DNA of 64,000 bases from Flagellimonas algicola (GTDB lineage: Bacteria; Bacteroidota; Bacteroidia; Flavobacteriales; Flavobacteriaceae): NCBI RefSeq assembly GCF_005937185.1, contig NZ_VCNI01000004.1, positions 62,001-126,000 of the forward strand. The letters run 5' to 3'. The translations under genes were made by a program, and so were the position numbers. A model generated the notes under the pieces. It saw only the letters and a program-made list of their open reading frames with translations. It was not told the DNA's origin and ran no database searches. Shown here in pieces: positions 49,203 to 64,000 of this stretch. Position 1 is the stretch's first letter; each line of letters opens with the position of its first letter.

Positions 49203-49205
49203 ATG
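49146..49205 (+). repeat. 18-bp direct repeat pair at the bfmA-like start
   Basis: ATTTTTAATGGAAAAATG occurs at 49146-49163 and again at 49188-49205, 42 bp apart (four helical turns). Each copy is itself an inverted repeat (TTTTT and AAAAA around AATGG). The second copy ends in the start codon of the BfmA/BtgA-like gene. Good candidate for a dimeric repressor or relaxosome-accessory binding site. Confidence 0.75.
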
Positions 49206-49784
49206 GATAAAGGATATCAAAAGGAACGGTTTACATGTCTAAGCATCAAGATCTCAATTGCCAAAAAATATCGGAGGTTTTGTAAAACCCTTGGCAGGTC
49301 ACAGTCCATGACCTTATTGGCGATGATGGAATTTTTTGAAGGAAATGGAATCTCCCCTGACGAGCGGATGCATGATACCATCTCCAGTCTTAAATATTTG
49401 GTGAAGCAACGCTTCAATGCCATGATCGCCATTATACGTAGCATCGAAAAGGAACAGACCCTGCCCACGATCAGTATGATCCAGGCCCTCTTTGAACAGG
49501 AACTCGAATCCGACGGGGAGGAATGGGAAGGGGACTTTGACTTTATGGAACGGCAACTGACGGAAACCACCCCAAAGGAGGAGGAAATTCTGGATGTGGA
49601 AACGACGGTACCCAAGATCCGGTACGATAGGCTAGAGGAACAAATGGAGGACTTGAAATGTGATTTTGCACATGTTCTGGGCCATGTGGTCCTGTCCAAG
49701 AACCGATTTGGAAAGGACCATCTTCGATTGGATTTAAATCCAGAAGAAATAGAAAAGTATAGAAGAAAACTCAAAAACCTGTAA
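49203..49784 (+). CDS. BfmA/BtgA-family mobilization protein
   Basis: The product is 193 residues. The N-terminal part (TCLSIKISIAKKYRRFCKTL and SQSMTLLAMMEFFEGNGISP) matches the ribbon-helix-helix-like BfmA/BtgA mobilization family of Bacteroidetes. The middle has KYLVKQRFNAMIAIIRSIEK, and an acidic stretch follows. Family role: DNA-binding accessory protein of the relaxosome that recognises oriT. Its start codon is part of a direct repeat and it lies 4 bp before the relaxase, so the two are translated together. Confidence 0.85.
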   Translation: MDKGYQKERFTCLSIKISIAKKYRRFCKTLGRSQSMTLLAMMEFFEGNGISPDERMHDTISSLKYLVKQRFNAMIAIIRSIEKEQTLPTISMIQALFEQELESDGEEWEGDFDFMERQLTETTPKEEEILDVETTVPKIRYDRLEEQMEDLKCDFAHVLGHVVLSKNRFGKDHLRLDLNPEEIEKYRRKLKNL

Positions 49785-49788
49785 CACC

Positions 49789-50808
49789 ATGTACATAGGC
49801 ATTACACGCCAGCAACTGGGGGAGAACTTTCGCGGCAGTGTCCGTGACTTTGTCAACTACCTTGAAAAGGAGAACGAAGGTAAGGCACCAAAACTTCAGG
49901 AACTATATTTCAACCAAGAAGAGCATGGTATCGATACGGAGCGGGTCATAGCCGAGATCGATGCCAACACCGCCAAGCTCAAAAAACGGGATCCCAAGTT
50001 CTATTCCATTGTGGTAAGCCCATCACAACGGGAACTTGAACATATCGGCAACAGTCCCGAGAAATTGAAACAATATACCCGGGAACTGATGAAGGCCTAT
50101 GCGGCATCCTTTTATCGAGATAGGGAAGTGACCGTTAAGGATATCCTCTATTTTGCCAAATTGGAGCGGGAACGGACCTATTCCCAGCGGGACCGTGAAG
50201 TGAGGGAGAACCAATCGTATGCCACCCAAATCTTGGAACTCAAGCAGCGGATCTGGGCCATGGAAAATGGAGAAGAACAGGGGAATATCGAACAACTTCA
50301 AGAGCGGATAAGGGTCCTGGATAGGGATGCGCCCCATCGGCAAAACGGAAAACGGATTGTTCCGGGGATGGCCAAGGAAGGCCATCAGAGCCATATCCAT
50401 ATCATTGTCAGCCGCAAGGATGTGACCAATACCCATAGCCTGTCCCCAGGATCCAAGTTCCGGATCTCGGAGACCATTCTCAATGGGTCAACCGTAAAAC
50501 AGGGGTTTGATAGGGGCAGGTTCTACCGTGGGGCGGAAAAGACTTTTGATAGTAAGTTCGGGTACCGCCGAAATTTTGTGGAGACCTATCATGCCCGTAA
50601 CCTCTTGGACAAGGACCCCAAACATTTCTTTGCCCTGTTATTGGGCCTTCCGACACATGAGAAACAGCTGGCCCGCCAATTGCTGTTCAGGGCAGGGGTA
50701 CGGGTACCCACCTTCCCTGTCAACAAAACACAGTTGGCCCACAAGGCCTTGAAACAACTAAAGAAGGGAATCGGAAAAGCTCTGGAATCAGGAACGATCG
50801 GGATTTAA
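49789..50808 (+). CDS. mobB: MobB-family relaxase
   Basis: The product is 339 residues. It begins MYIGITRQQLGENFRGSVRD, then FYSIVVSPSQRELEHIG and a coiled-coil stretch. The metal-binding histidine motif HQSHIHIIVSRKD (HxxHxH) lies at about residue 203. The early YxxDRE-type region (AYAASFYRDREVTV) may supply the catalytic tyrosine. Family role: nicks oriT and pilots the strand to the recipient. Gene order BfmA-like, MobB, VirD4-like is that of known Bacteroidetes mobilizable elements. No T4SS genes are present, so a helper conjugative element would be needed. Confidence 0.88.
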   Translation: MYIGITRQQLGENFRGSVRDFVNYLEKENEGKAPKLQELYFNQEEHGIDTERVIAEIDANTAKLKKRDPKFYSIVVSPSQRELEHIGNSPEKLKQYTRELMKAYAASFYRDREVTVKDILYFAKLERERTYSQRDREVRENQSYATQILELKQRIWAMENGEEQGNIEQLQERIRVLDRDAPHRQNGKRIVPGMAKEGHQSHIHIIVSRKDVTNTHSLSPGSKFRISETILNGSTVKQGFDRGRFYRGAEKTFDSKFGYRRNFVETYHARNLLDKDPKHFFALLLGLPTHEKQLARQLLFRAGVRVPTFPVNKTQLAHKALKQLKKGIGKALESGTIGI

Positions 50809-50814
50809 TGCACT

Positions 50815-52410
50815 ATGGAATATTTTGGATGGATACAGCTAGTGGTGGCCCTGCTGATCGGGGGAGGGGTTTCTTATGGGGCCGTTCGATATGTCAAATA
50901 CGGATTTCTTTGGGTACTCCTTGGGCTTGTGTTGATGGCCATTGGGACTTTGGTGGTCCTGGATCGGGAATTGTTTCTTAGGGCATTATTGGGACTATGG
51001 TTGCCTTTACTGTTCTTGCATACGGTCTTATATGGCCTTAACGGAAAAGGAAGGGGATCACCAAGGGCCTCCAAGATCTTTGAGGTAAAACTCAAGGTCC
51101 GGGGCAGATCCTTGGTACTTGGGAATATCCGTCGGGGCGTGTCCGTGATGGCCTCCGCCGGAAGCGGAAAGACCGAGAGTGTGATCTATGGGTTCCTGAA
51201 GCATTTCAAAAAGCAAGGTTTTTCCGGAATCATCCACGACTACAAGGATTTTGAGATCACGGAAATGGCCTGGCCGCTATGGAAAGATGGGGGAGTGCCC
51301 TTTCATGTGGTATCCTTCGGACCCATCCACCAGCGTGTCAATCCCATAGCTCCAAGGTACCTGCCCGATGAGGAAAGCGTGCATGAGGTATCAAGGGTAC
51401 TCTTGGAAAATCTCATGGAACACCGGGATTCGGACGGGAACAGCACCTCCCGCTTCTTTAAGGATGCCGCCGAAGGCCTGATCAGTGGGCTGATATGGCG
51501 ATTGAAAACGGATTATCCCGATTATTGCACCTTGCCCCACCTGATGGCCCTCTACCAACAGCTTGGCATCAAAAGCTTGGTCAAGTTCCTGCGGAAAAAC
51601 ATTACCTCACGGGCCATGGCCGATGCTTTTATCAGTGGGGTGGGGTCGGAGCGGCAGACCGCCGGGGTGCTGAGTACCTTGGCAAATGCCATTAAAAAGA
51701 TCAGTACCCGGAAAATATTTTGGGTCCTGTCCGTGGATGAGGTTCCACTGGATATCAACCATCCCAAAAACCCTGCTGTCATTGCCCTGGTGAACAATCC
51801 CCAAAAAGATGCTTCCCTCTCACCGGTGATCGCCACCATTATCCATACCATCTCCAAACAAATGGCCCAACGGAAACGACAGCCCTCCTTTATGTTGTTG
51901 GAGGAAGCATCCACCATTCGTCTGTTGAACATGCACCGTATCCCCGCCACTTTGAGGAGCTATGATATCGTAAGCCTTTATGTACTGCAGGATAAGATCC
52001 AAAACGATATGATGTATGGGGAGAAGGCCAGTAAAGCCATTTTGAGCAACCTGTCCTATCAGTTTTTTGGGAAGGTGAACGACCCCGATACCGCCAAATA
52101 TTATGAACGTTTTTTTGAAATTGTCAAACGTCCCACAAGGAGTGTGAGCAAAAGCACGGGGCTGAACCTGGAGCGTCGAATCACCGAAGGGGAGAAGGAA
52201 GTCTCCAAACGAAGGGCTGATGTGTTCTTTCGGTTGCGACAGGGAGAGTTTGTGGTGTTTGCGGATGGCAAGGACCGGAAGGTGCAGTTTCCAAAACCTG
52301 AGATATTCAGGGGACTGCCCGAACCGGTTCCGTATACCGATAGGGAACTGGAACAACACTACCTTAAGGTGCATCGGGAGATCAAGTCGATATTTCGTGG
52401 GCCTGATTGA
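50815..52410 (+). CDS. VirD4/TraG-like type IV coupling ATPase
   Basis: The product is 531 residues. Two to three N-terminal transmembrane helices (about residues 5-70) precede an ATPase: Walker A ASAGSGKTES at about 118-127, IIHDYKDFE, then Walker B-like PSFMLLEEASTIRL and a conserved VLQDKIQ segment. It couples the relaxase-DNA complex to a type IV secretion channel at the inner membrane. It starts 6 bp after mobB and ends the mobilization operon; a large hairpin follows 11 bp downstream. Confidence 0.9.
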   Translation: MEYFGWIQLVVALLIGGGVSYGAVRYVKYGFLWVLLGLVLMAIGTLVVLDRELFLRALLGLWLPLLFLHTVLYGLNGKGRGSPRASKIFEVKLKVRGRSLVLGNIRRGVSVMASAGSGKTESVIYGFLKHFKKQGFSGIIHDYKDFEITEMAWPLWKDGGVPFHVVSFGPIHQRVNPIAPRYLPDEESVHEVSRVLLENLMEHRDSDGNSTSRFFKDAAEGLISGLIWRLKTDYPDYCTLPHLMALYQQLGIKSLVKFLRKNITSRAMADAFISGVGSERQTAGVLSTLANAIKKISTRKIFWVLSVDEVPLDINHPKNPAVIALVNNPQKDASLSPVIATIIHTISKQMAQRKRQPSFMLLEEASTIRLLNMHRIPATLRSYDIVSLYVLQDKIQNDMMYGEKASKAILSNLSYQFFGKVNDPDTAKYYERFFEIVKRPTRSVSKSTGLNLERRITEGEKEVSKRRADVFFRLRQGEFVVFADGKDRKVQFPKPEIFRGLPEPVPYTDRELEQHYLKVHREIKSIFRGPD

Positions 52411-52876: not shown

Positions 52877-52918
52877 TGTCCGTAGATTTGTCCGTGTCCG
52901 TAAATATGTCCGTAAATT
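52877..52918 (+). repeat. Four TGTCCGT repeats spaced 12-6-12 bp, directly before the methyltransferase start
   Basis: TGTCCGT starts at 52877, 52889, 52895 and 52907. The first 36 bases form two 18-bp direct repeats, TGTCCGTAGATTTGTCCG and TGTCCGTAAATATGTCCG, and a TAAATT tail follows. The array ends 3 bp before the ATG, so any protein bound there would cover the ribosome-binding region of the gene. Order, spacing and place argue for a binding-site array. Confidence 0.9.
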
Positions 52919-52921
52919 ACC

Positions 52922-55138
52922 ATGGCAACATTTAACTTCTATCTCGATAAGACCGATAAAAAAGGTTTTGCCCCCATTCACCTCAGAATCAATTGCAATG
53001 CCGAACAGATAAAGGTCTCCACCAAGGAGAAAGTCAAACCGGAAGAGTTTGACAAAGAAACCCAATCAGTGATCAGTAGTTCCGATAGAGCTGTTGAGAT
53101 CAACTATTATTTGGGATATTTAAGGGACAGGGCAGAGGAACTGTTCAACAACTCCCTCAAGACACGGTATACGGATAAGGAAATCAAGGATAAACTTACT
53201 GATTTTGTCAATGCCCATAAGGAAGGGCATGATGTGAACATTGTTCGGAAATCCGACCCTTCCAATGGGGAGGCGTTTACCTTTGTAGATCTGTTCGCCG
53301 GTGCGGGCGGTTTTAGCGAAGGTTTTTTGCAGGCGGAAAGCGACAACAAATATTTTGATTTTTTGTTGGCCAATGACATCAATGACAATTCAGAATTGAC
53401 CCATTTGGTGCGGTACAATTATCAACTGGGATTGGATACGGGATTTTTATGTCAGGATATCACCGAACCTGATTTTTTGGATAACCTATTGGGCAAATTG
53501 GATGGTCAAAGCGTAGATGTTGTCTGTGGGGGACCACCTTGCCAAAGTTTTAGTTTGGCAGGTAAGCGAAAGAAGTTCGATAAAAAGGATAATCTCTTTG
53601 CTCACTATTTGGAGGTTATCAAAGTATTGCAGCCCAAGTACTTTGTCATGGAAAACGTCAAGGGTATCCTGACCAAGGAACGTGGCAAGATCAAGGAACT
53701 GGTCTTGACCGAGATCAACTCTATCGTGGACATCAATGAGATCCCAAAGCTTTCAAATTTTGTCGGCTCCTTGAAGAAGGACAGTCTTGAAGATGCCTTT
53801 ATCTTGGATTGTCTGGTCAAGCGTATTGAAATGGAACAGTTTACGGAAGCGAAAGCGGAAATTGAGAAGGAGGATTATATCAGGGCCATAGATGCAAGGT
53901 TTAAAAAACTGATTCCCAATGTTGTTGATTATAAAACCAGTAAGACAGATGTCAGGGTCGGTACGATCAGACATGGGTTCAACTTGCTCATACGAAACAA
54001 GGAATGGGAGAAACTCAAAAGGGATATCATACGGGAAAAGGATTACTGCAATATCGACAATGATGACTTTGTGGACACCTTTACCGAATTTTTGGTGCAT
54101 CTTGATGCTCAGGAAATCATCGATAAAATTGAAAAGGCCTTTCAGGACCTTAAGGTTGATAAAAAGTTCAAAAAGCAATGCGGGGATATCATCCATGCCT
54201 TGAAGATCTATGTGCTCAATATTGATGATTGCCTGACCACAATAAAAAAGTTTTGTAATAAAAAACAAGAGCAGGAACTGCAAAAGATCATTGATGATAT
54301 AAGGCTATATAAAATTGAAGCACCCTTTGTGGCCAATTCCTCGAATTATGGGGTGCCCCAGAATAGGGAACGGGTACTGTTCATTGGGTGTAGAAAGGAT
54401 CAGCAGTTTATCTCGGAGATTCCCGCTACAGTAAAGGAAGAGGAAAAGGTTTCTGTTTTTGAAGCGCTATATGATCTGGATTTCATAGGGAACAATGAGG
54501 AGGTCCATGACTATCAGCCCGTTGATATCACCAAACAATACAATGGTGTTGCCAAAAAAATGAAAGGATTGTTGAGGCCTAGATCAATAGCGGGAAAACC
54601 TTTGACCAAAAGAAATGGAAAAACTTTTGCGGAATGGAGCAAAACGGGTCGTCTTAACGGTCGGTTTGTGAATGCCGCGAAACCTTTTTATGTAAAAAAT
54701 ACGGAGGCCTTGGACAACAATCAAAGGGACCATGCTTTACTTCACAATCATAAGAGCAGTAATCAGAATGATAATGTAATCAAGCGGCTTGATATCATCT
54801 TGAAGGAAGGGGATTATAAGAAAGCGCAGGAAAAGTTGAACCAGTGTGGGCTGGCTTCCAATAAACGCAATTATAATGTGTTGAAGCCCGAAAGTCAAAG
54901 TCCGACCGTAATGACCATCCCCGATGATTACATCCACTACAATTCCCCACGGGCTCTGACCGTCCGTGAAATGGCCCGATTACAATCCTTTGACGATTCC
55001 TTTGTGTTTCAGGGCAAGCGTTCCACGGGGGGCAATAATAGAAAATCAGAACTACCACAATACACCTTGGTTGGTAATGCAGTTCCTCCATTAATGGCCA
55101 GAGCAGTGGCCATGGAAATCTTAAAAAACATAAAGTGA
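52922..55138 (+). CDS. C5-cytosine DNA methyltransferase with N-terminal integrase-type arm-binding domain
   Basis: The product is 738 residues. Residues 1-100 (MATFNFYLDKTDKKGFAPIH, KVSTKEKVKPEEFDKET, EINYYLGYLRDRAEELF) match the arm-type DNA-binding domain at the start of Bacteroidetes tyrosine recombinases. The methyltransferase follows: motif I FVDLFAGAGGFSEGF (about 121-135), motif IV GGPPCQSFSLAGK with the catalytic cysteine (about 207), motif VI ENVKG, an insertion of about 200 residues, then VPQNRERVLFIG, TVMTIPDD, LTVREMARLQSF and YTLVGNAVPP. It makes 5-methylcytosine to protect host DNA from the partner nuclease. GTGA overlap of 4 bp joins it to the nuclease gene. No catalytic part of a recombinase is present, so this is a true fusion, not a broken integrase. 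Confidence 0.93.
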   Translation: MATFNFYLDKTDKKGFAPIHLRINCNAEQIKVSTKEKVKPEEFDKETQSVISSSDRAVEINYYLGYLRDRAEELFNNSLKTRYTDKEIKDKLTDFVNAHKEGHDVNIVRKSDPSNGEAFTFVDLFAGAGGFSEGFLQAESDNKYFDFLLANDINDNSELTHLVRYNYQLGLDTGFLCQDITEPDFLDNLLGKLDGQSVDVVCGGPPCQSFSLAGKRKKFDKKDNLFAHYLEVIKVLQPKYFVMENVKGILTKERGKIKELVLTEINSIVDINEIPKLSNFVGSLKKDSLEDAFILDCLVKRIEMEQFTEAKAEIEKEDYIRAIDARFKKLIPNVVDYKTSKTDVRVGTIRHGFNLLIRNKEWEKLKRDIIREKDYCNIDNDDFVDTFTEFLVHLDAQEIIDKIEKAFQDLKVDKKFKKQCGDIIHALKIYVLNIDDCLTTIKKFCNKKQEQELQKIIDDIRLYKIEAPFVANSSNYGVPQNRERVLFIGCRKDQQFISEIPATVKEEEKVSVFEALYDLDFIGNNEEVHDYQPVDITKQYNGVAKKMKGLLRPRSIAGKPLTKRNGKTFAEWSKTGRLNGRFVNAAKPFYVKNTEALDNNQRDHALLHNHKSSNQNDNVIKRLDIILKEGDYKKAQEKLNQCGLASNKRNYNVLKPESQSPTVMTIPDDYIHYNSPRALTVREMARLQSFDDSFVFQGKRSTGGNNRKSELPQYTLVGNAVPPLMARAVAMEILKNIK

Positions 55139-56313
55139 GGAAACTTACCGAGGCCGAACAAGACAAGATCAAGGTCCTGACCAAACATCAAGTGCCATTT
55201 ACTTTGATCGAGCCTACGGGGACGGGTTTAAGGAAAGCGATTATGGATGCTACCGGACCTGTGCGCAGCTTTTTGGAAAGTAAGAATATCCATGAGTATG
55301 GATTACAGGAACAAGGACCAAAGAATAAAGTGTTGTTTCCTGCGGTGATACATGAGGGATCTAGAGTGGTAAGGTCAAAGGCTTCTTTATACCGTCCGGT
55401 CACAAAGAATGGCGATCCCAGAATTTGGTTCTACGGACTGTCCAATTTTGCAGCACCCAATGATATTGTTGCAATCACCTATTTTGATGATAGTTTCCAG
55501 ATTTTTAACCTGACACAATTGGATATTGAAGGGCTTGTGGGTTCTGCCATACGGAACCCCCTTCAAGAATTGATCTTGGAAATCAACACTGTTGAAAATG
55601 AAGTGGCCTTTGAGTTATTGGCCATGCTTCGTAGAGTGGCAAGCTCCGGACCCATACCCTCAGTAGTGGATGCGGATACCTCCGTGGGACGGACCCTTGA
55701 AACGGCACTTGGCATAGATATCAATTCATCCAAAAAACCGGATTATAAGGGAATTGAGCTCAAGTCCTTCCGAAATAACAGAACGAACAGGAAAAACCTG
55801 TTTGCCCAAGTGCCCGATTGGACATTGAGCAAGTTTAAAAGTTCCGAGGAGATCTTGGATACTTTTGGATATGAACGTGGAGACGATTTTAAACTGTATT
55901 GTACGGTTTCTGCAATAAATAGAAATTCTCAAGGCTTAAGTCTAAGATTGGATAATGACATAAGTCAATTGATTGAAAACTCCCATGATCCCGCAATCGG
56001 GGATTTTGTCATATGGACCTTGGACAAACTTCATGATCGACTCATGGAAAAGCATAAAGAGACATTTTGGATAGAAGCTGAGAGCAGTACAATTGGTGGT
56101 ACGGAGCATTTCCTGTACAAATTGGTGGAGCATACCAAAAAACCGATAACCTCCCAATTTGACCTGCTCGTTGATCAGGGAATCATTACACTTGACCATC
56201 TGATCAAACGGAATTCCAAGGGAAAAGTTGTTGAAAAAGGGCCATTGTTCAAGATCAAACCGAAAGGAATTGGACTTCTATTTCCACCTAGTGAGACCTA
56301 TGCCTTAATTTAA
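55135..56313 (+). CDS. MvaI/BcnI-family restriction endonuclease
   Basis: The product is 392 residues, starting at GTG 55135 within the GTGA overlap with the methyltransferase stop. The catalytic half (about residues 170-390) has DTSVGRTLETALGI, NSSKKPDYKGIELKSFR (D...ExK nuclease core) and EEILDTFGYERGDDFKLY, all characteristic of MvaI/BcnI enzymes, which cleave CCWGG/CCSGG-type sites as monomers. MvaI-type enzymes are about 250 residues; the extra N-terminal 150 residues (LIEPTGTGLRKAIMDATGPV, WFYGLSNFAAPNDIVAI) may be an additional recognition or regulatory domain. Translational coupling after the methyltransferase ensures protection first. Recognition sequence not predictable. Confidence 0.9.
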   Translation: MRKLTEAEQDKIKVLTKHQVPFTLIEPTGTGLRKAIMDATGPVRSFLESKNIHEYGLQEQGPKNKVLFPAVIHEGSRVVRSKASLYRPVTKNGDPRIWFYGLSNFAAPNDIVAITYFDDSFQIFNLTQLDIEGLVGSAIRNPLQELILEINTVENEVAFELLAMLRRVASSGPIPSVVDADTSVGRTLETALGIDINSSKKPDYKGIELKSFRNNRTNRKNLFAQVPDWTLSKFKSSEEILDTFGYERGDDFKLYCTVSAINRNSQGLSLRLDNDISQLIENSHDPAIGDFVIWTLDKLHDRLMEKHKETFWIEAESSTIGGTEHFLYKLVEHTKKPITSQFDLLVDQGIITLDHLIKRNSKGKVVEKGPLFKIKPKGIGLLFPPSETYALI

Positions 56314-56718
56314 TAAAAGGATGTTTGTGTAACTCCTTCTTTAGGATATTTGACGGGCTACACCGGAACTAATTCGAAGCGACGGATACCTATAACCAGG
56401 GCATGTTTTGAATCAGCTTGTTGCTTTTCAATTGTTTATTGGTGTTTTTGGGAGCTCAATTATCCCCATCGATAACGGTATACTATGACCTGCGTTTCCA
56501 GTATATTATGGGCATGATAAAAAAGATATCGGAAAGCTGTAAATTGATAAAGAAAAAACGAGGCCCAAAAGAAGGAAAAACCATCAAATTCAAAAGTTGA
56601 AACTATGACACGGCTTTGAACTAGGCCAGTTCAAAGCCGTTTGAAGATGTACTGATCAAAATAGTCATGTTTATATGGATCAAGTGCTTTGGAGGGGATA
56701 AGTGAATTAGACTATAGT
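56314..56718 (+). other. Intergenic region between the R-M pair and the helicase
   Basis: About 400 bases. A plus-strand ORF of 60 codons at 56418-56600 ends in a very basic tail (KKKRGPKEGKTIKFKS) but has no family match. The stretch also holds a strong hairpin. GGAGGGG at 56690 resembles a ribosome-binding site but lies too far from ATG 56719; it would suit the TTG at 56689 even less well. Confidence 0.4.
56610..56640. terminator. Hairpin, probable terminator after the R-M operon
   Basis: Perfect 13-bp stem ACGGCTTTGAACT and AGTTCAAAGCCGT with loop AGGCC, followed only by TTTG. The weak T tract lowers certainty, but the position between operons fits. Confidence 0.55.
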
Positions 56719-59700
56719 ATGCAAAACATCCTGTTTTTAGACATTGAGGTTAATCCTAAAACCAATACAATAGATTATGGAGCTACTTTTAAGGGACAGG
56801 AATTGCATGAAAGAAACACCAATAGACTGGAGCTATGGATAAAGGAGGCCAAATTCATTTGTGGTCATAACATTATCAAACATGATGTTCCAAAGCTGAA
56901 AAGTAAGTTAGGGGAAGAAGTTTTCATAGGGAAGAAATTTATCGATACATTATTATGGTCACCCATCTTATTTGTAAAGAGGCCAAACCATAAGCTTACC
57001 AAAGGCTATCGCATTGTAAATGCATCAGAAGTCAACAACCCACTTTCTGACTGTAAATTAACGGAAGACTACTTGATCAAAGAGCTAAATAGGTTCAATG
57101 AATTAAGTATATCGGAGCGAAGTGTATATTATGACTTGCTCAAGAACAAGCCCAGCTTTAATGCTTTTTTCGCCATGGCTGGTTTTGATGAATCCAAATT
57201 AGTTGAAAGACATATTGGGGAGTTGATAGGAGAGTTCATTTGTTCAACAGTTGATTTGGATCATTATGCAGATCAATACCCAGTAGGACTCGCATACGTT
57301 TTTACTTTATTAAAATTAGGCGATGCGGATGCGGTATTACCACCTTGGGTTAGGCATGAATATCCAGAAGCTGAAAAAATACTAAATGACATCCGATTTA
57401 AATCTTGCGATGATCCAGGGTGCCCGTATTGTTTGAATAAGTTGAATCCCAAAAAAGCGCTCTTTGAATTCTTTAATTATAGCGGTTTCAGAAAGTTTGA
57501 AGAACACAGAATAACCAGTTTACAAGAAGAAGCTGTAAAGGCAGGTTTGCAAAGAAAATCTTTTGTGGCCGTGTTTCCCACAGGTGGAGGGAAGTCACTG
57601 ACCTTCCAATTGCCCGCATTAATGCGAGGCGTTTCCACAAGGCATTTGACCATTGTTATTTCTCCTTTGATATCCCTTATGAAAGATCAGGTCGATAATC
57701 TGAGAGACCGTTTCGGGATAACCAAGGCGGTTGCGATCAATGGTTTACTGTCGCCTCTTGAACGTCAGGAGGCCTTTGAAATGGTTTCGGATGGAAGGGC
57801 AGATTTACTTTATCTGTCCCCAGAATCGTTAAGATCTCCATCAATTTTCAGATTGATATTAACGCGTTCTGTGGGTCGTATTGTAATTGATGAAGCACAC
57901 TGCTTTTCAAGTTGGGGACAGGACTTTAGGGTGGATTATCTGTTCATAGCTGATTTTATTAAAAAAATTGAAAATGAAAAGAACATCTCGCAGATTCCCG
58001 TGTCATGTTTTACGGCAACGGCAAAGCTTCAGGTAATCAAGGACATAAAATTTTATTTCCAAGATCGCTTGGGGTTGGAATTGGACGAGTTTATTACGAA
58101 TAAAGGAAGATCCAATCTATCCTATGAAGTGGTTAATGTTGAAGAGCCTGAGCGCAAAATGGGTTATTTGTTGCGTGTGCTTGAGGATTGCGAAAAACCG
58201 GCAATAATTTATGCATCAAGGACCAAGCAAGTGGAAATTGTTTGCGCATTGGTAAATGAGGCCGGTTTTAATGCCACTTTTTTCCATGGGAAATTGGACA
58301 AGGATACGAAAAAGGCAAACATGGATGCCTTTATGAAGGAGGACAATGAAATCATTGTGGCCACTTCAGCTTTTGGGATGGGAGTGGACAAGGACAATGT
58401 AAAGACTGTTGTTCATTATAATATTTCAGATTCACTGGAAAATTATGTTCAAGAAGCGGGCAGGGCCGGAAGGGATGAAAAAATCAATGCCAAATGCTAC
58501 ATATTGTACAGTGAGGAGGACTTGAACAAACATTTCAGTTTGTTACAGCGGACTAAACTGAATCACAAGGAGATCAAGGATATATGGAGAGCGATTAAAG
58601 GTCAAGCGAAGTTTAGGGATAAAATCAGTCAATCGGCTTTGGAGATTGCTAAGAAATCCGGTTGGGACGCGGAAATGCTGGACTTGGAAACGAAAGTAAA
58701 AACAGCTATCTCAGCTTTAGAGGATCAAGGGTTTTTAGTAAGGTCTTTAAACTCACCCAGAGTATTTGCCGATAGTTTATTGGTTAAAAGTTTTGGTAGT
58801 GGGCAAGAGATTCTTAGAAACAGTAAAAAAATAACAGATCAAGATAAGAAAGACTGTGGCATTGTTTTAAAACGGATAATCACCGATGGCGAAACAAGGA
58901 TAGATTACCTTGCAGATACTACTCAGTTGAGCTCAAAAAGAATACAGCATGCTGTTCGAATGCTCAGAGACCATGCAATATTGGGTGATGCTAAAGATTT
59001 AACCGCTTTTTTGAGTTTGGTTCAATCCAAAAATGGTTCAAAAAGGATATTGGAGGATTATTTAAAGGTAGAAAAGGGCATACTTGACATTATTAACGCA
59101 AATAAATTACAAATTCCATTACGGGAATTAAATCAAAGGTTGTTGGATAGTGGGGTTGTTGAATCCAATGTTGCGTATATAAGAGCCTTGCTGACGTATT
59201 GGGATAAAAGGCGATTTGTTAAGAAGAGCAGAAAGGACAAAGAAAAGGATATTTATGAAATAGAATTTATTAAACGGGAAGATCTTATTGAAGATATAAA
59301 ATGGCGTCACGATTTATCGTTATCAACATTCAGGTTTCTTGAAAATCTTGCCATAAATAACAAGGAACATATAGGAGGAAAGGAAGAAGTGCCTGTTTCT
59401 TTCTCCTTACTTGAGTTGAAAGAATCCAACCAGTTTATGGGGAGTCTGGTAGAGGAGAATACCAAAAAATACGAAATCTGTTTATTGTTCTTAAATGATA
59501 TTAAAGCCATATCCTTGGAGGGAGGATTTATGGTTTCTTACAACAAACTAAATATATCGGAGGTGGATACGGGCAAAAGAGTGTTTACTACTGATAACTA
59601 CAGCAAGATCAAAGAGTTTTATCTACATAGAACAGAGCAAATCCATATTGTTGGGGAATATGCCAAAAAATGTGTTCAAAATTATGAATCGGCCTTAGCC

Positions 59701-61527
59701 TATGTCAATGACTATTTTACATTGGATTACGAGGAGTTTTTGGCCCGATATTTCCCTAGAAAGAAAAAGGAAATACAAAGGTCAATAACCCCCAAACGCT
59801 TTATGGAGATCATTGAAGATCTGGATACCGATCAAACCAAGGTCATTGAGGATAATAAATCGGACAATATATTGGTCTATGCTGGTCCGGGCAGTGGTAA
59901 GACCAAGGTTTTGGTTCATAAAATAGCCAGTTTATTGCTGATTGAAGACATAAAGCCGGAACAATTTATGATGCTTACCTTTTCAAAGGCGGCTTCACTG
60001 GAATTTAAACAGCGTGTTAGAAATCTCGTGCCCGAATATGCTGGGCTTATCAAGATTACCACTTTCCATGGTTTTTGTTTTCAATTGCTAGGTCAATTGG
60101 GAGACCTTGACAAGTCTCAAAATGTAATACGGGATTGTATTAATGCCATAAGGGCGGGCGAAATTGATATTTCGTCCCTTGAAAACAAGAGTATCTTGAT
60201 GTTCGATGAGTTTCAAGATATAAATAAAGAAGAGTGGGAATTAATAGAATTGATAATTGAAAAGGCAGATAAACCACGCGTGATTGCCGTTGGGGACGAC
60301 GACCAGAATATTTATGGTTTCAGGGGGTCTTTAAATGCATTTATGGGTAATTTTAGAAGTAAGTACGGGGCAACTTTATATACCCTTCCTAAAAATTATC
60401 GTAGTTATTCGGAGATAGTGGAGTTTAATAATCACGTACTGGCCTATCTTAGAAATAGATTAAAAAACCAACGGCTAATTGCCAGTCGGAATAGAGGAGA
60501 AGGACATGTCAATATCATTACATATAATGGTAAATATATAGAGAAACCTTTGGTTGAATATATAGCTGGAACGCAGTTGCCCGGAAGTAAAGCCGTTTTG
60601 ACCAGAACAAATATTGAAGCATTGCAGGTTAGCTCCATGCTAAAGATGCATGGGTACAAGGTGAAGTTAATGGCAGGTTTTGACGGGTTTCGGGTTTCCG
60701 ATTTGTTTGAAATTAGATGCTTTGATCGCAAATTAAGTAGTGAGGTTGGAGAATCAGGGATAATATTTGAGGCATCATGGGATCTGGCATTGGATTGGTT
60801 TAGAAAAACTTTCAAACAAAGTTTGCACTTTGAAACTTGTGTAGCCTTGATCAAGAAATTTGACCATTCAAATCCCGACAAAAAGCTTTTAGTGGAATGG
60901 AGGGAATTCTGTAGGGAAATAAATATGGAAGATGCCATAAACCCTGATTCCGAAAGTATTGTAGTATCAACTATGCACAAGGCCAAGGGGAAGGAATACG
61001 ACCATGTAATGATGTTGGTGGTAGATTATGATTGTACCACTGATGAATCTAGAAGACTGTTATATGTGGCCAGTACAAGAGCCAAGAAAACCCTGCATAT
61101 CCATACCAATATTGACTTTTATGATAAGATTGAATCAAAGAACATTACCAGAAGTGGGTTCATAGGGGAGTTGGGTGAACCATTGGGGTATGAGATGATT
61201 TTAGGTCATAAAGATGTAAGTTTAAGCTCTTTTAATTATCCTATTCCGTTATCAATTTTAAAGACAATTAAAACAGGCGATAAACTTGAAAAGGACATTA
61301 AGATTTTCGGTGATAGTGAAACTCCGGGATTGGCTAAGAAATCGCATGGCAATTTATTGTTGTTCTCAAAGAAGTTTGTTGCGGAACAATATAGTCCAAT
61401 GATAAAAAAGGGCTATGCTATAACAAGTGGCACAGCAGAGTATGTTGTTTATTGGTACAACAAGAATGATGAAAAGGAGTATAAGATAGTTTTACCAAGG
61501 TTGAAATTTGAGAAAAGGAATTTTTGA
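56719..61527 (+). CDS. Exonuclease-like / RecQ / UvrD fusion helicase
   Basis: The product is 1602 residues from ATG 56719; a TTG at 56689 would add ten. Order of parts: a DEDD 3'-5' exonuclease-like region (ILFLDIEVNPKT, then FICGHNIIKHDVPKL); a cysteine cluster SCDDPGCPYCLNK near 230; a RecQ helicase with Walker A FPTGGGKSLTF (about 286), IDEAHCFSSWGQDFR and QEAGRAGRDEK; a helical middle; and a UvrD/Rep-type superfamily 1 helicase with VYAGPGSGKTKVL (about 1053), FDEFQDINKEEW, GDDDQNIYGFRGS, STMHKAKGKEYDHV and LLYVASTRAKK. Both ATPase sites look intact. Such fusions occur in defence islands, but no activity is assigned. It stands beside the R-M pair with no overlap. Confidence 0.9.
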   Translation: MQNILFLDIEVNPKTNTIDYGATFKGQELHERNTNRLELWIKEAKFICGHNIIKHDVPKLKSKLGEEVFIGKKFIDTLLWSPILFVKRPNHKLTKGYRIVNASEVNNPLSDCKLTEDYLIKELNRFNELSISERSVYYDLLKNKPSFNAFFAMAGFDESKLVERHIGELIGEFICSTVDLDHYADQYPVGLAYVFTLLKLGDADAVLPPWVRHEYPEAEKILNDIRFKSCDDPGCPYCLNKLNPKKALFEFFNYSGFRKFEEHRITSLQEEAVKAGLQRKSFVAVFPTGGGKSLTFQLPALMRGVSTRHLTIVISPLISLMKDQVDNLRDRFGITKAVAINGLLSPLERQEAFEMVSDGRADLLYLSPESLRSPSIFRLILTRSVGRIVIDEAHCFSSWGQDFRVDYLFIADFIKKIENEKNISQIPVSCFTATAKLQVIKDIKFYFQDRLGLELDEFITNKGRSNLSYEVVNVEEPERKMGYLLRVLEDCEKPAIIYASRTKQVEIVCALVNEAGFNATFFHGKLDKDTKKANMDAFMKEDNEIIVATSAFGMGVDKDNVKTVVHYNISDSLENYVQEAGRAGRDEKINAKCYILYSEEDLNKHFSLLQRTKLNHKEIKDIWRAIKGQAKFRDKISQSALEIAKKSGWDAEMLDLETKVKTAISALEDQGFLVRSLNSPRVFADSLLVKSFGSGQEILRNSKKITDQDKKDCGIVLKRIITDGETRIDYLADTTQLSSKRIQHAVRMLRDHAILGDAKDLTAFLSLVQSKNGSKRILEDYLKVEKGILDIINANKLQIPLRELNQRLLDSGVVESNVAYIRALLTYWDKRRFVKKSRKDKEKDIYEIEFIKREDLIEDIKWRHDLSLSTFRFLENLAINNKEHIGGKEEVPVSFSLLELKESNQFMGSLVEENTKKYEICLLFLNDIKAISLEGGFMVSYNKLNISEVDTGKRVFTTDNYSKIKEFYLHRTEQIHIVGEYAKKCVQNYESALAYVNDYFTLDYEEFLARYFPRKKKEIQRSITPKRFMEIIEDLDTDQTKVIEDNKSDNILVYAGPGSGKTKVLVHKIASLLLIEDIKPEQFMMLTFSKAASLEFKQRVRNLVPEYAGLIKITTFHGFCFQLLGQLGDLDKSQNVIRDCINAIRAGEIDISSLENKSILMFDEFQDINKEEWELIELIIEKADKPRVIAVGDDDQNIYGFRGSLNAFMGNFRSKYGATLYTLPKNYRSYSEIVEFNNHVLAYLRNRLKNQRLIASRNRGEGHVNIITYNGKYIEKPLVEYIAGTQLPGSKAVLTRTNIEALQVSSMLKMHGYKVKLMAGFDGFRVSDLFEIRCFDRKLSSEVGESGIIFEASWDLALDWFRKTFKQSLHFETCVALIKKFDHSNPDKKLLVEWREFCREINMEDAINPDSESIVVSTMHKAKGKEYDHVMMLVVDYDCTTDESRRLLYVASTRAKKTLHIHTNIDFYDKIESKNITRSGFIGELGEPLGYEMILGHKDVSLSSFNYPIPLSILKTIKTGDKLEKDIKIFGDSETPGLAKKSHGNLLLFSKKFVAEQYSPMIKKGYAITSGTAEYVVYWYNKNDEKEYKIVLPRLKFEKRNF

Positions 61528-62862: not shown

Positions 62863-63198
62863 TTATTCGCTGGCATTTTCTTCTTCTGATTTAGTACTCA
62901 GTTCTACAGTGTATTTATCTATCGCAGTTTTATACATTGCATTGACACTATCCTGAAACCTTGTTTTATTACTCAAAAACTCATTGAATTTTCCGTAGAT
63001 ATTTCTATAGATAATGTTGTGCGCTGGATTTTGTAGAAGTTCATCTTTGTACTCCTGCATTTGAAATTCTTCCGTTGTTGCCTTGCCAATTAATTTTAGA
63101 AGATCATCTTTACTTATTTGGTCTAATTCAGTCCATTCCTCACTACTCCCATCAGTTCTATAATAGCCTTTGTTATTATCAATTTTTAAGTATGTCAT
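62863..63198 (-). CDS. Small partner protein of the ABC-type ATPase
   Basis: The product is 111 residues: MTYLKIDNNKGYYRTDGSSE, then LDQISKDDLLKLIGKATTEE and a helical C-terminus. I know similar short proteins beside SMC-like ATPases in Bacteroidota and Firmicutes but no assigned function. Its ATG lies 20 bp inside the end of the ATPase gene, so the two are translationally coupled and probably form a complex. Confidence 0.75.
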   Translation of the reverse strand: MTYLKIDNNKGYYRTDGSSEEWTELDQISKDDLLKLIGKATTEEFQMQEYKDELLQNPAHNIIYRNIYGKFNEFLSNKTRFQDSVNAMYKTAIDKYTVELSTKSEEENASE

Positions 63199-64000
63199 AA
63201 GCTTTTTCTTTTCTTTCGTTATATGCTTCCAATCCAGCTTCTAAACAACTGAGCAGTGTTTCGTAATTCTCTAATTTCTTTCCATCTGCACTTGTCAATT
63301 CTTTATCGGATGGATAGCCAGTAAAAATGCGATAAACAAATTCTTTGTCTTCAATACTTTTTTGCGTAATTGCTAGAAAATTAGGCTTGATTGAAGCTCC
63401 CACAGTGCTGTTGTGTGTTACCACAACTACCGGCATTAGTGTAGAAATATGTTTAATAATTGCATTAATCTCCTTGTTAAGGAAGTCATTGTCAAAGGAT
63501 GATTCTGGTTCATCAATTAGTAAAAGGTCATATTTCGTAGCATCTTGTATTTCGTGAATTAAATTAAACTCGGAACGTTCTCCACCCGATACAATAAATC
63601 CATCTTCATTAAATGTGATTGATTCTATTCTAATGAAGAATTTGTAAAGATTAGCATCCTCTACACCAAGTTGTTTTAATCCTAATAAATATTGGTAGGC
63701 TGATGTATTATAACTCCTAAAAGCTGTGCTGTACATTTTCTTGTCACGTCCAACCTTTTGAAGGTCAGAAGCTCCTTCCATTTCTTTTGTAGAAGTAACA
63801 ATTGAAAATTTACCCAGTTCTTCTTTGTGAATTTCTCTACTTTTTTTCAGTATACTAACAACTTTTTCAAACTTTTCGACCTTAACTTCATCTAAACCAA
63901 TTCTATAAAAATCCAAATCTTCTATAACAGCCCCGGTAGTCTTAATTCTTAATTCTCTTGTTATATCACTTGTTAAGGAATTAATCCAACTTTTTTTATT
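63179..64000 (-). CDS. ABC/SMC-type ATPase, 5' part beyond window
   Basis: The frame is open to the right edge, so the N-terminus with Walker A is missing. The visible 273 residues are the C-terminal half of an SMC/RecN-like ATPase: ABC signature IVSGGERSEFNL, Walker B DLLLIDEPESSFDNDFL and switch histidine PVVVVTHNSTVG. A helical arm precedes the signature. Such ATPases paired with small proteins occur in defence modules (ABC three-component, Septu-like and others); which type this is cannot be decided without the missing part. Confidence 0.85.
   Translation of the reverse strand, partial: NKKSWINSLTSDITRELRIKTTGAVIEDLDFYRIGLDEVKVEKFEKVVSILKKSREIHKEELGKFSIVTSTKEMEGASDLQKVGRDKKMYSTAFRSYNTSAYQYLLGLKQLGVEDANLYKFFIRIESITFNEDGFIVSGGERSEFNLIHEIQDATKYDLLLIDEPESSFDNDFLNKEINAIIKHISTLMPVVVVTHNSTVGASIKPNFLAITQKSIEDKEFVYRIFTGYPSDKELTSADGKKLENYETLLSCLEAGLEAYNERKEKAYDILKN

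Follow-up and report, generated by a model that had tools for sequence, protein, structure and literature searches.

We identified in the window (the whole 64-kb stretch of DNA analysed here) a type II restriction-modification operon that is probably repressed by its own methyltransferase, through an arm domain that was probably captured from an integrase together with the sites that this domain would bind. The first gene of the operon is a C5 methyltransferase ORF of 738 aa (52922-55138, forward strand) with an ATG start. It reads in frame through an arm DNA-binding domain (approximately residues 1-104) and linker (together 52922..53260, forward strand) into a C5-cytosine DNA methyltransferase domain (53261..55138, forward strand). 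Judged from its sequence, the protein thus joins an integrase-type arm domain, in frame, to a C5 methyltransferase that is intact.

The original prediction held that the N-terminal residues are the arm domain of a tyrosine recombinase, that no recombinase catalytic domain follows, and that the methyltransferase is intact and in frame. All three claims agree with the profile searches. Residues 9-83 matched Arm-DNA-bind_5 (PF17293; curated cut-off 22.6 bits) with a score of 27.1 bits (E 6e-6) when the whole protein was searched and of 33.2 bits (E 7e-8) when residues 1-110 were searched alone. When 58 methyltransferase N-termini were aligned to 18 integrase arms, hhalign returned a probability of 99.0% (E 6.8e-18) over 89 columns. 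Profile scans of the 738-aa protein detected neither a recombinase core-binding or catalytic domain after the arm nor a helix-turn-helix family at the N-terminus. From residue 119 onward the protein is a C5 methyltransferase (Pfam DNA_methylase, PF00145, 184.5 bits; TIGR00675, 153.9 bits, cut-off 100.65), and the catalytic GGPPCQ motif is invariant in 38 aligned sequences.

An AlphaFold2 model of residues 1-117 (pLDDT 84) has strands at residues 3-8, 17-25 and 28-38 and helices at residues 57-79 and 85-104. A Foldseek search of the PDB found no solved structure resembling this model at E <= 0.001, so the arm-domain assignment rests on sequence profiles. A search of PDB sequences with the arm profile gave only chance-level matches (best E 0.19). 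The expected match to recombinase arms, by profile or structure, was accordingly found by profile but not by Foldseek at this threshold. Pfam matches the methyltransferase domain as two pieces, with an insertion of ~190 aa (residues ~267-460, 53720-54301) between the ENV and QNRER motifs. The insertion is mostly helical in the full-length model, which is modest (pLDDT 68) and served for secondary structure only.

The arm recurs in the relatives of this methyltransferase. A tblastn search with residues 1-153 matched 43 of 397 same-family genomes. In 19 of these (including the genome of the window), residues 1-153 or 3-153 were covered with at least 48% identity, in frames of 736-775 aa; in the other 24 only the arm was matched, at 25-35% identity and mostly in integrase-length frames. 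With the methyltransferase part as the query, 20 of the 397 genomes matched at 1e-40 or better, and these are the 19 arm-bearing genomes and one in which the copy is broken off by the contig end. As the same 19 genomes match both queries and the copy in the twentieth is incomplete, the survey of homologues proposed with the original prediction finds the arm N-terminus in all 19 complete copies among these genomes.

An alignment of the arm alone recovered 157 relatives in named genome contigs, of which the best 80 were kept. All 80 encode an in-frame ATG, arm and C5 motif GGPPC, although the frame of one (L098) leaves its contig further downstream. A true start near residue 105 had been raised as the case against a fusion, and it is contradicted by these relatives, which all start with an ATG at the arm. 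The two sets overlap, as several of the 80 records are identical to records among the 19 same-family copies, and they are thus not independent. By record and family names, the relatives are placed in Flavobacteriales, Bacteroidales and Chitinophagales, and also in families such as Marivirgaceae, Roseivirgaceae, Flammeovirgaceae and Sphingobacteriaceae, which we take to represent Cytophagales and Sphingobacteriales. The arm-methyltransferase fusion is a phylum-wide family and not a one-off.

The median dN/dS of the arm is 0.042 across 369 pairs, which are not independent as the sequences are related. In a tree of arm domains (65 rows, 117 columns, quick method), a single branch (SH-aLRT 96) has all 28 methyltransferase arms on the same side. 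Distances between arms follow those between methyltransferases, with a Mantel r of 0.84 for 38 sequences that was reached by 0 of 999 permutations. No relatives were found in genome contigs or viral contigs with the full-length protein as the query, nor in viral contigs with the arm-only alignment. In tblastn searches of plasmid and phage records, the arm was not convincingly covered among the matches listed (40 each, from 3775 plasmid and 565 phage records). These begin at residue 95 or later, except for some that begin at 69-70 and one (H65, 25.7% identity) that begins at residue 31.

Immediately upstream of the methyltransferase gene we identified an array of four direct TGTCCGT boxes (52877..52913, forward strand), which we refer to as the operator. 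The boxes start at 52877, 52889, 52895 and 52907 (offsets 0, 12, 18 and 30, for a spacing of 12-6-12), and the operator ends 8 nt ahead of the ATG. Such a four-box array was found once in the window. The operator is conserved before the arm-methyltransferase genes of 81 loci (the window and the 80 relatives). Compared to a template of 26 fixed positions, which was drawn from these same sequences, 63 loci have no mismatch, 15 have one and 2 have two, so that 80 of the 81 fall within two mismatches. The exception is L099, which has two boxes only and does not fit the template. Counted at the four places, four box cores are present in 76 of the 81 loci, three in 4 and two in 1. Among the same-family genes (n = 19), 16 have four boxes, L012 has three, and L014 (the same record as L099) and L026 have two. 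A distant arm-methyltransferase gene, L168, likewise has two boxes only. In L014, L026 and L168 the boxes lie 12 bp apart; since these loci keep two boxes, the smallest unit may be a pair spaced 12 bp. At L028 the arm is 39% identical, yet four boxes are present.

Most box positions have an information content of 1.7-2.0 bits, compared to 0.1-1.1 bits in the upstream flank; looser positions lie in the spacers, within box 3 and at either end of box 4. The distance from the array to the ATG ranges from 3 to 17 nt across the 81 loci and includes all three frames, which indicates that the operator is kept as DNA and not as coding sequence. The open frame of L017 and L024 extends upstream to an ATG within box 1, by which gene callers could be misled at these two loci.

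We searched for the exact box pair TGTCCGTNNNNNTGTCCGT in the 397 same-family genomes and detected it at 24 places in 23 genomes. Nineteen of the places (18 genomes) are arm-methyltransferase promoters, and the other five are within unrelated ORFs. The exact pair is therefore present in 18 of the 19 gene-bearing genomes, in each case at the promoter of this gene; in the nineteenth (G270), box 2 has a one-base variant. About two dozen matches to a reversed control pattern were counted in the 397 genomes. Thus, the box pair alone is not rare, and it is the placement that is telling. A looser box pattern matched 19 of 395 genomes of the phylum, and the places were examined in the genome of the window and in G181. 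A pattern scan of viral contigs gave matches in two of them, both at the same site within a 787-aa ORF, which were taken as chance.

The placement of the boxes bears on where the arm may direct the enzyme, for which the original prediction had named its own operon and the ends of elements. Integrase arm domains are described, in passages of PMC8138268, as recognizing accessory arm sites. If the arm anchored the methyltransferase at arm-type sites in other places (the ends of elements or other loci), the enzyme could modify the DNA around these sites or act as a competitor to integrases, and the operator would then be one of several sites. The operon does adjoin a mobilization module (49203-52410), in which profile scans identified a BfmA/BtgA-type protein, a MobB relaxase and a coupling protein (MobC, below the cut-off), and the scan of these three genes agrees with the earlier statement that the module has no integrase. 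However, the exact box pair occurs in the genome of the window only at the operator, and in the 18 matched gene-bearing genomes only at the promoter. Furthermore, tblastn found no match to the mobilization proteins in 100 related loci (52 of the 80 named ones have at least 4 kb upstream), and the module thus seems not to belong to the system. We consider tethering to other sites quite unlikely. Of the two targets first named, the operon has a matching repeat array, and the element ends are not borne out.

The boxes coincide with a predicted promoter. The sigma-A -7 box of Bacteroidota is described as TAnnTTTG at -12 to -5 (PMC9723704), and a predicted element of this type, TAGATTTG (52883..52890, forward strand), lies across boxes 1 and 2. 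From the position of this element, transcription is predicted to start at about 52895, so that the array would extend from about -18 to +19. TAnnTTTG occurs at exactly this place in 72 of the 81 leaders, and 75 have it at some position within the final 60 nt. Of its six fixed letters, four are supplied by the boxes and their flank, and the promoter match is therefore only partly independent (for the spacer TT alone). A -33-like TTG or TTnG at a suitable distance was found in only 32 of the 81 leaders.

The -7 element across boxes 1 and 2 would also be expected if the boxes were read by another factor or simply kept as promoter sequence, with the arm serving to stabilize or dimerize the enzyme or in some similar role, and an arm model that matches no solved structure leaves room for such a role. 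However, promoter function leaves unexplained why there are four boxes at 12-6-12, two of which are downstream of the -7 element. Also against this explanation are the presence of the array with the gene across several orders, and the repeats with 11-12 bp spacing that occur at integrases with the same domain family (see below). On balance, we regard this explanation as unlikely.

Two further explanations concern the leader itself. Control of methyltransferase promoters by methylation has been described (in sections of PMC3874152), and expression here could be set by methylated recognition sites within the promoter, in the manner of CfrBI, and not by the arm domain. Candidate sites are frequent, with AATT in 72 of the 81 leaders and ACGT in 67. 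However, no 4- or 6-bp palindrome is present in all 81 (AATT is the commonest), CCNGG is present in none, and the GTCCG core of the boxes is not palindromic, all of which make methylation control very improbable. Alternatively, the boxes could act on translation from within the mRNA leader, as might be supposed from the end of the array so close (3-17 nt) to the ATG. When leaders from 7 of the 81 loci were folded, though, their stability did not exceed that of Markov resamplings, and boxes 1 and 2 are mostly upstream of the predicted transcription start, so that an effect on translation seems extremely improbable.

Repression of the operon by the arm-methyltransferase, the reading we prefer, draws further evidence from integrases with the same arm domain. 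We picked 44 integrase loci by arm similarity alone, which were reduced to 40 once near-copies were dropped. All 44 exceed the PF17293 cut-off, and the catalytic Phage_integrase domain was detected in 40 of the 44. L170 is truncated where its contig ends, and three others (L181, L188 and L190) are short. For 23 of the 40 integrases, the 250 bp upstream contain a direct repeat of 7 nt or longer with a lag of 11 or 12; among 144 control ORFs, 13 had one (Fisher p 4e-10). The control set included regions that overlap the methyltransferase gene, and with 18 of them dropped, 6 of 126 had a repeat. The Markov expectation is a mean of 1.9 of 40, with a maximum of 7 in 500 first-order resamplings. The other 17 integrases have no exact repeat at a lag of 11-12.

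The repeat words of the integrases vary (e.g., TTGTACC, GGTGACC and CGGTGCC) and differ from TGTCCGT. In the tree, the integrases nearest to the methyltransferase arms are L170, L172, L182 and L189 (support 84). Three of these four have repeats near the start codon, and the repeat word of L189, TGTCCCT, is one letter off TGTCCGT. These integrases provide independent evidence for an association of upstream repeats with arm domains. The repeats lie within ~70 nt of the start codon in eight integrases (L170, L172, L180, L187, L189, L194, L003 and L006), which suggests that those eight may self-regulate.

The second gene of the operon encodes a restriction endonuclease of the MvaI/BcnI family (55135..56313, forward strand; PF15515, 250.7 bits), whose GTG start overlaps the stop codon of the methyltransferase gene on the same strand. 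An endonuclease gene directly adjoins the methyltransferase gene in 60 of the 80 relatives and is located behind an insert of 1.2-2.2 kb in another 10, although L110 has only a weak, partial match. As 10 of the 80 named loci carry an insert, the gap between the two genes may be an insertion hot spot. Examples of such inserts are L050:7785-9993 and L044:5808-7920 (reverse strand). Four insert genes were scanned, of which one had a good match to GmrSD_N and one a match below the GmrSD_N cut-off.

Among the remaining relatives, 7 of the 80 have a convergent gene for a protein of ~309 aa instead, in 2 the stretch ends, and 1 has neither. The convergent gene is present in L041 (7719-8648, reverse strand; L092 is the same record), L088, L089, L091, L099, L105 and L140. 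The ~309-aa protein of L041 has no Pfam or PADLOC match, and it is possibly a different endonuclease. No separate controller gene was noticed on ORF maps of 19 loci (ORFs of at least 80 aa, inspected as maps).

Downstream of the operon in the window we noted a gene (56689-61527) whose 1612-aa product combines a RecQ-like and a UvrD-like helicase half. Among the matches listed for the 80 relatives, this protein was matched only in L090 and L132, partially and with 24-31% identity, and upstream of the methyltransferase gene. Further along, a gene on the reverse strand (63179-63916) matched the PADLOC candidate defence family PDC-M49A over its C-terminal 244 positions.

In combination, these results suggest how the operon may regulate itself. 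The N-terminal arm-site-binding domain of the methyltransferase would bind the four TGTCCGT boxes. As the boxes lie over the predicted -7 element and start region, bound methyltransferase would block RNA polymerase, and the blocked promoter would hold the output of methyltransferase and endonuclease to a defined level. After entry into a new host without the methyltransferase, the promoter would be open and the methyltransferase, encoded by the first gene, would be produced first; its accumulation would then shut down the operon. Regarding the origin of the arrangement, a single methyltransferase lineage has probably taken up the 5′ end of an integrase gene, with the domain and the upstream arm-type sites together. 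A broader version of this proposal, which we offer tentatively and hold to be somewhat less than an even bet, is that the promoter, the arm-type sites and the arm domain of an integrase were captured whole, as a 5′ module that serves as a portable autorepression cassette, and that many Bacteroidota integrases likewise regulate themselves through arm sites near their promoters. If so, arm domains would constitute a recurring class of transcriptional regulators, beyond their role as parts of recombination.

Restriction-modification systems that enter a new cell must balance methyltransferase and endonuclease. The arm-methyltransferase family appears to meet this need by recruiting an integrase arm and its binding sites, and a defence system would thereby be tied to the recombinases of mobile elements. 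The operator is a defined 37-bp object for testing, and the box words may provide leads to the arm-site specificity of Bacteroidota integrases.

Several routes of control are described for restriction-modification systems (in sections of PMC3874152): a controller protein, a methyltransferase with a helix-turn-helix domain, and methylation of promoter sites, for example in CfrBI. In the second route, modification enzymes repress their own gene by an N-terminal helix-turn-helix at an operator that overlaps the promoter (PMC3874152), and M.Ecl18kI is described as competing with RNA polymerase (PMC3695355). EcoRII, ScrFI and MspI also have autoregulatory C5 methyltransferases, according to the titles of references. 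It had been stated with the original prediction that no system of this kind is described. That statement needs qualification, as the scheme of a self-repressing methyltransferase is already known with a helix-turn-helix domain; among the matches listed in a search of open-licence papers, we found no arm-domain methyltransferase or comparable system.

The system reported here resembles M.SsoII and M.Ecl18kI, as far as the sources consulted describe them, in that a type II C5 methyltransferase carries an N-terminal DNA-binding domain and the operator lies over its own (here predicted) promoter. It differs from them in the domain, which is a helix-turn-helix in those enzymes and an integrase arm of ~104 aa here, and in the site, which is an inverted repeat for SsoII and four direct boxes at 12-6-12 here. 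The layout also differs, as the endonuclease gene here follows on the same strand, with the gene ends overlapping. Systems controlled by C proteins share the feedback on the operon by a DNA-bound regulator (proposed here), but the regulator in our case would be the methyltransferase itself. With the PF17293 tyrosine integrases of Bacteroidota, the methyltransferase shares a homologous N-terminal domain, and upstream direct repeats spaced 11-12 bp accompany that domain in 23 of 40 integrases; unlike these integrases, it has a methyltransferase after the arm in place of core-binding and catalytic domains, and its box word is different. The partner endonuclease belongs to the MvaI/BcnI family by its PF15515 match. 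In the MvaI and BcnI systems themselves the methyltransferase is an N4-cytosine enzyme, whereas the one here is a C5 enzyme. Compared with the self-repressing methyltransferases described so far in these sources, then, the scheme appears to be shared, and the DNA-binding module, the operator and the gene layout are different.
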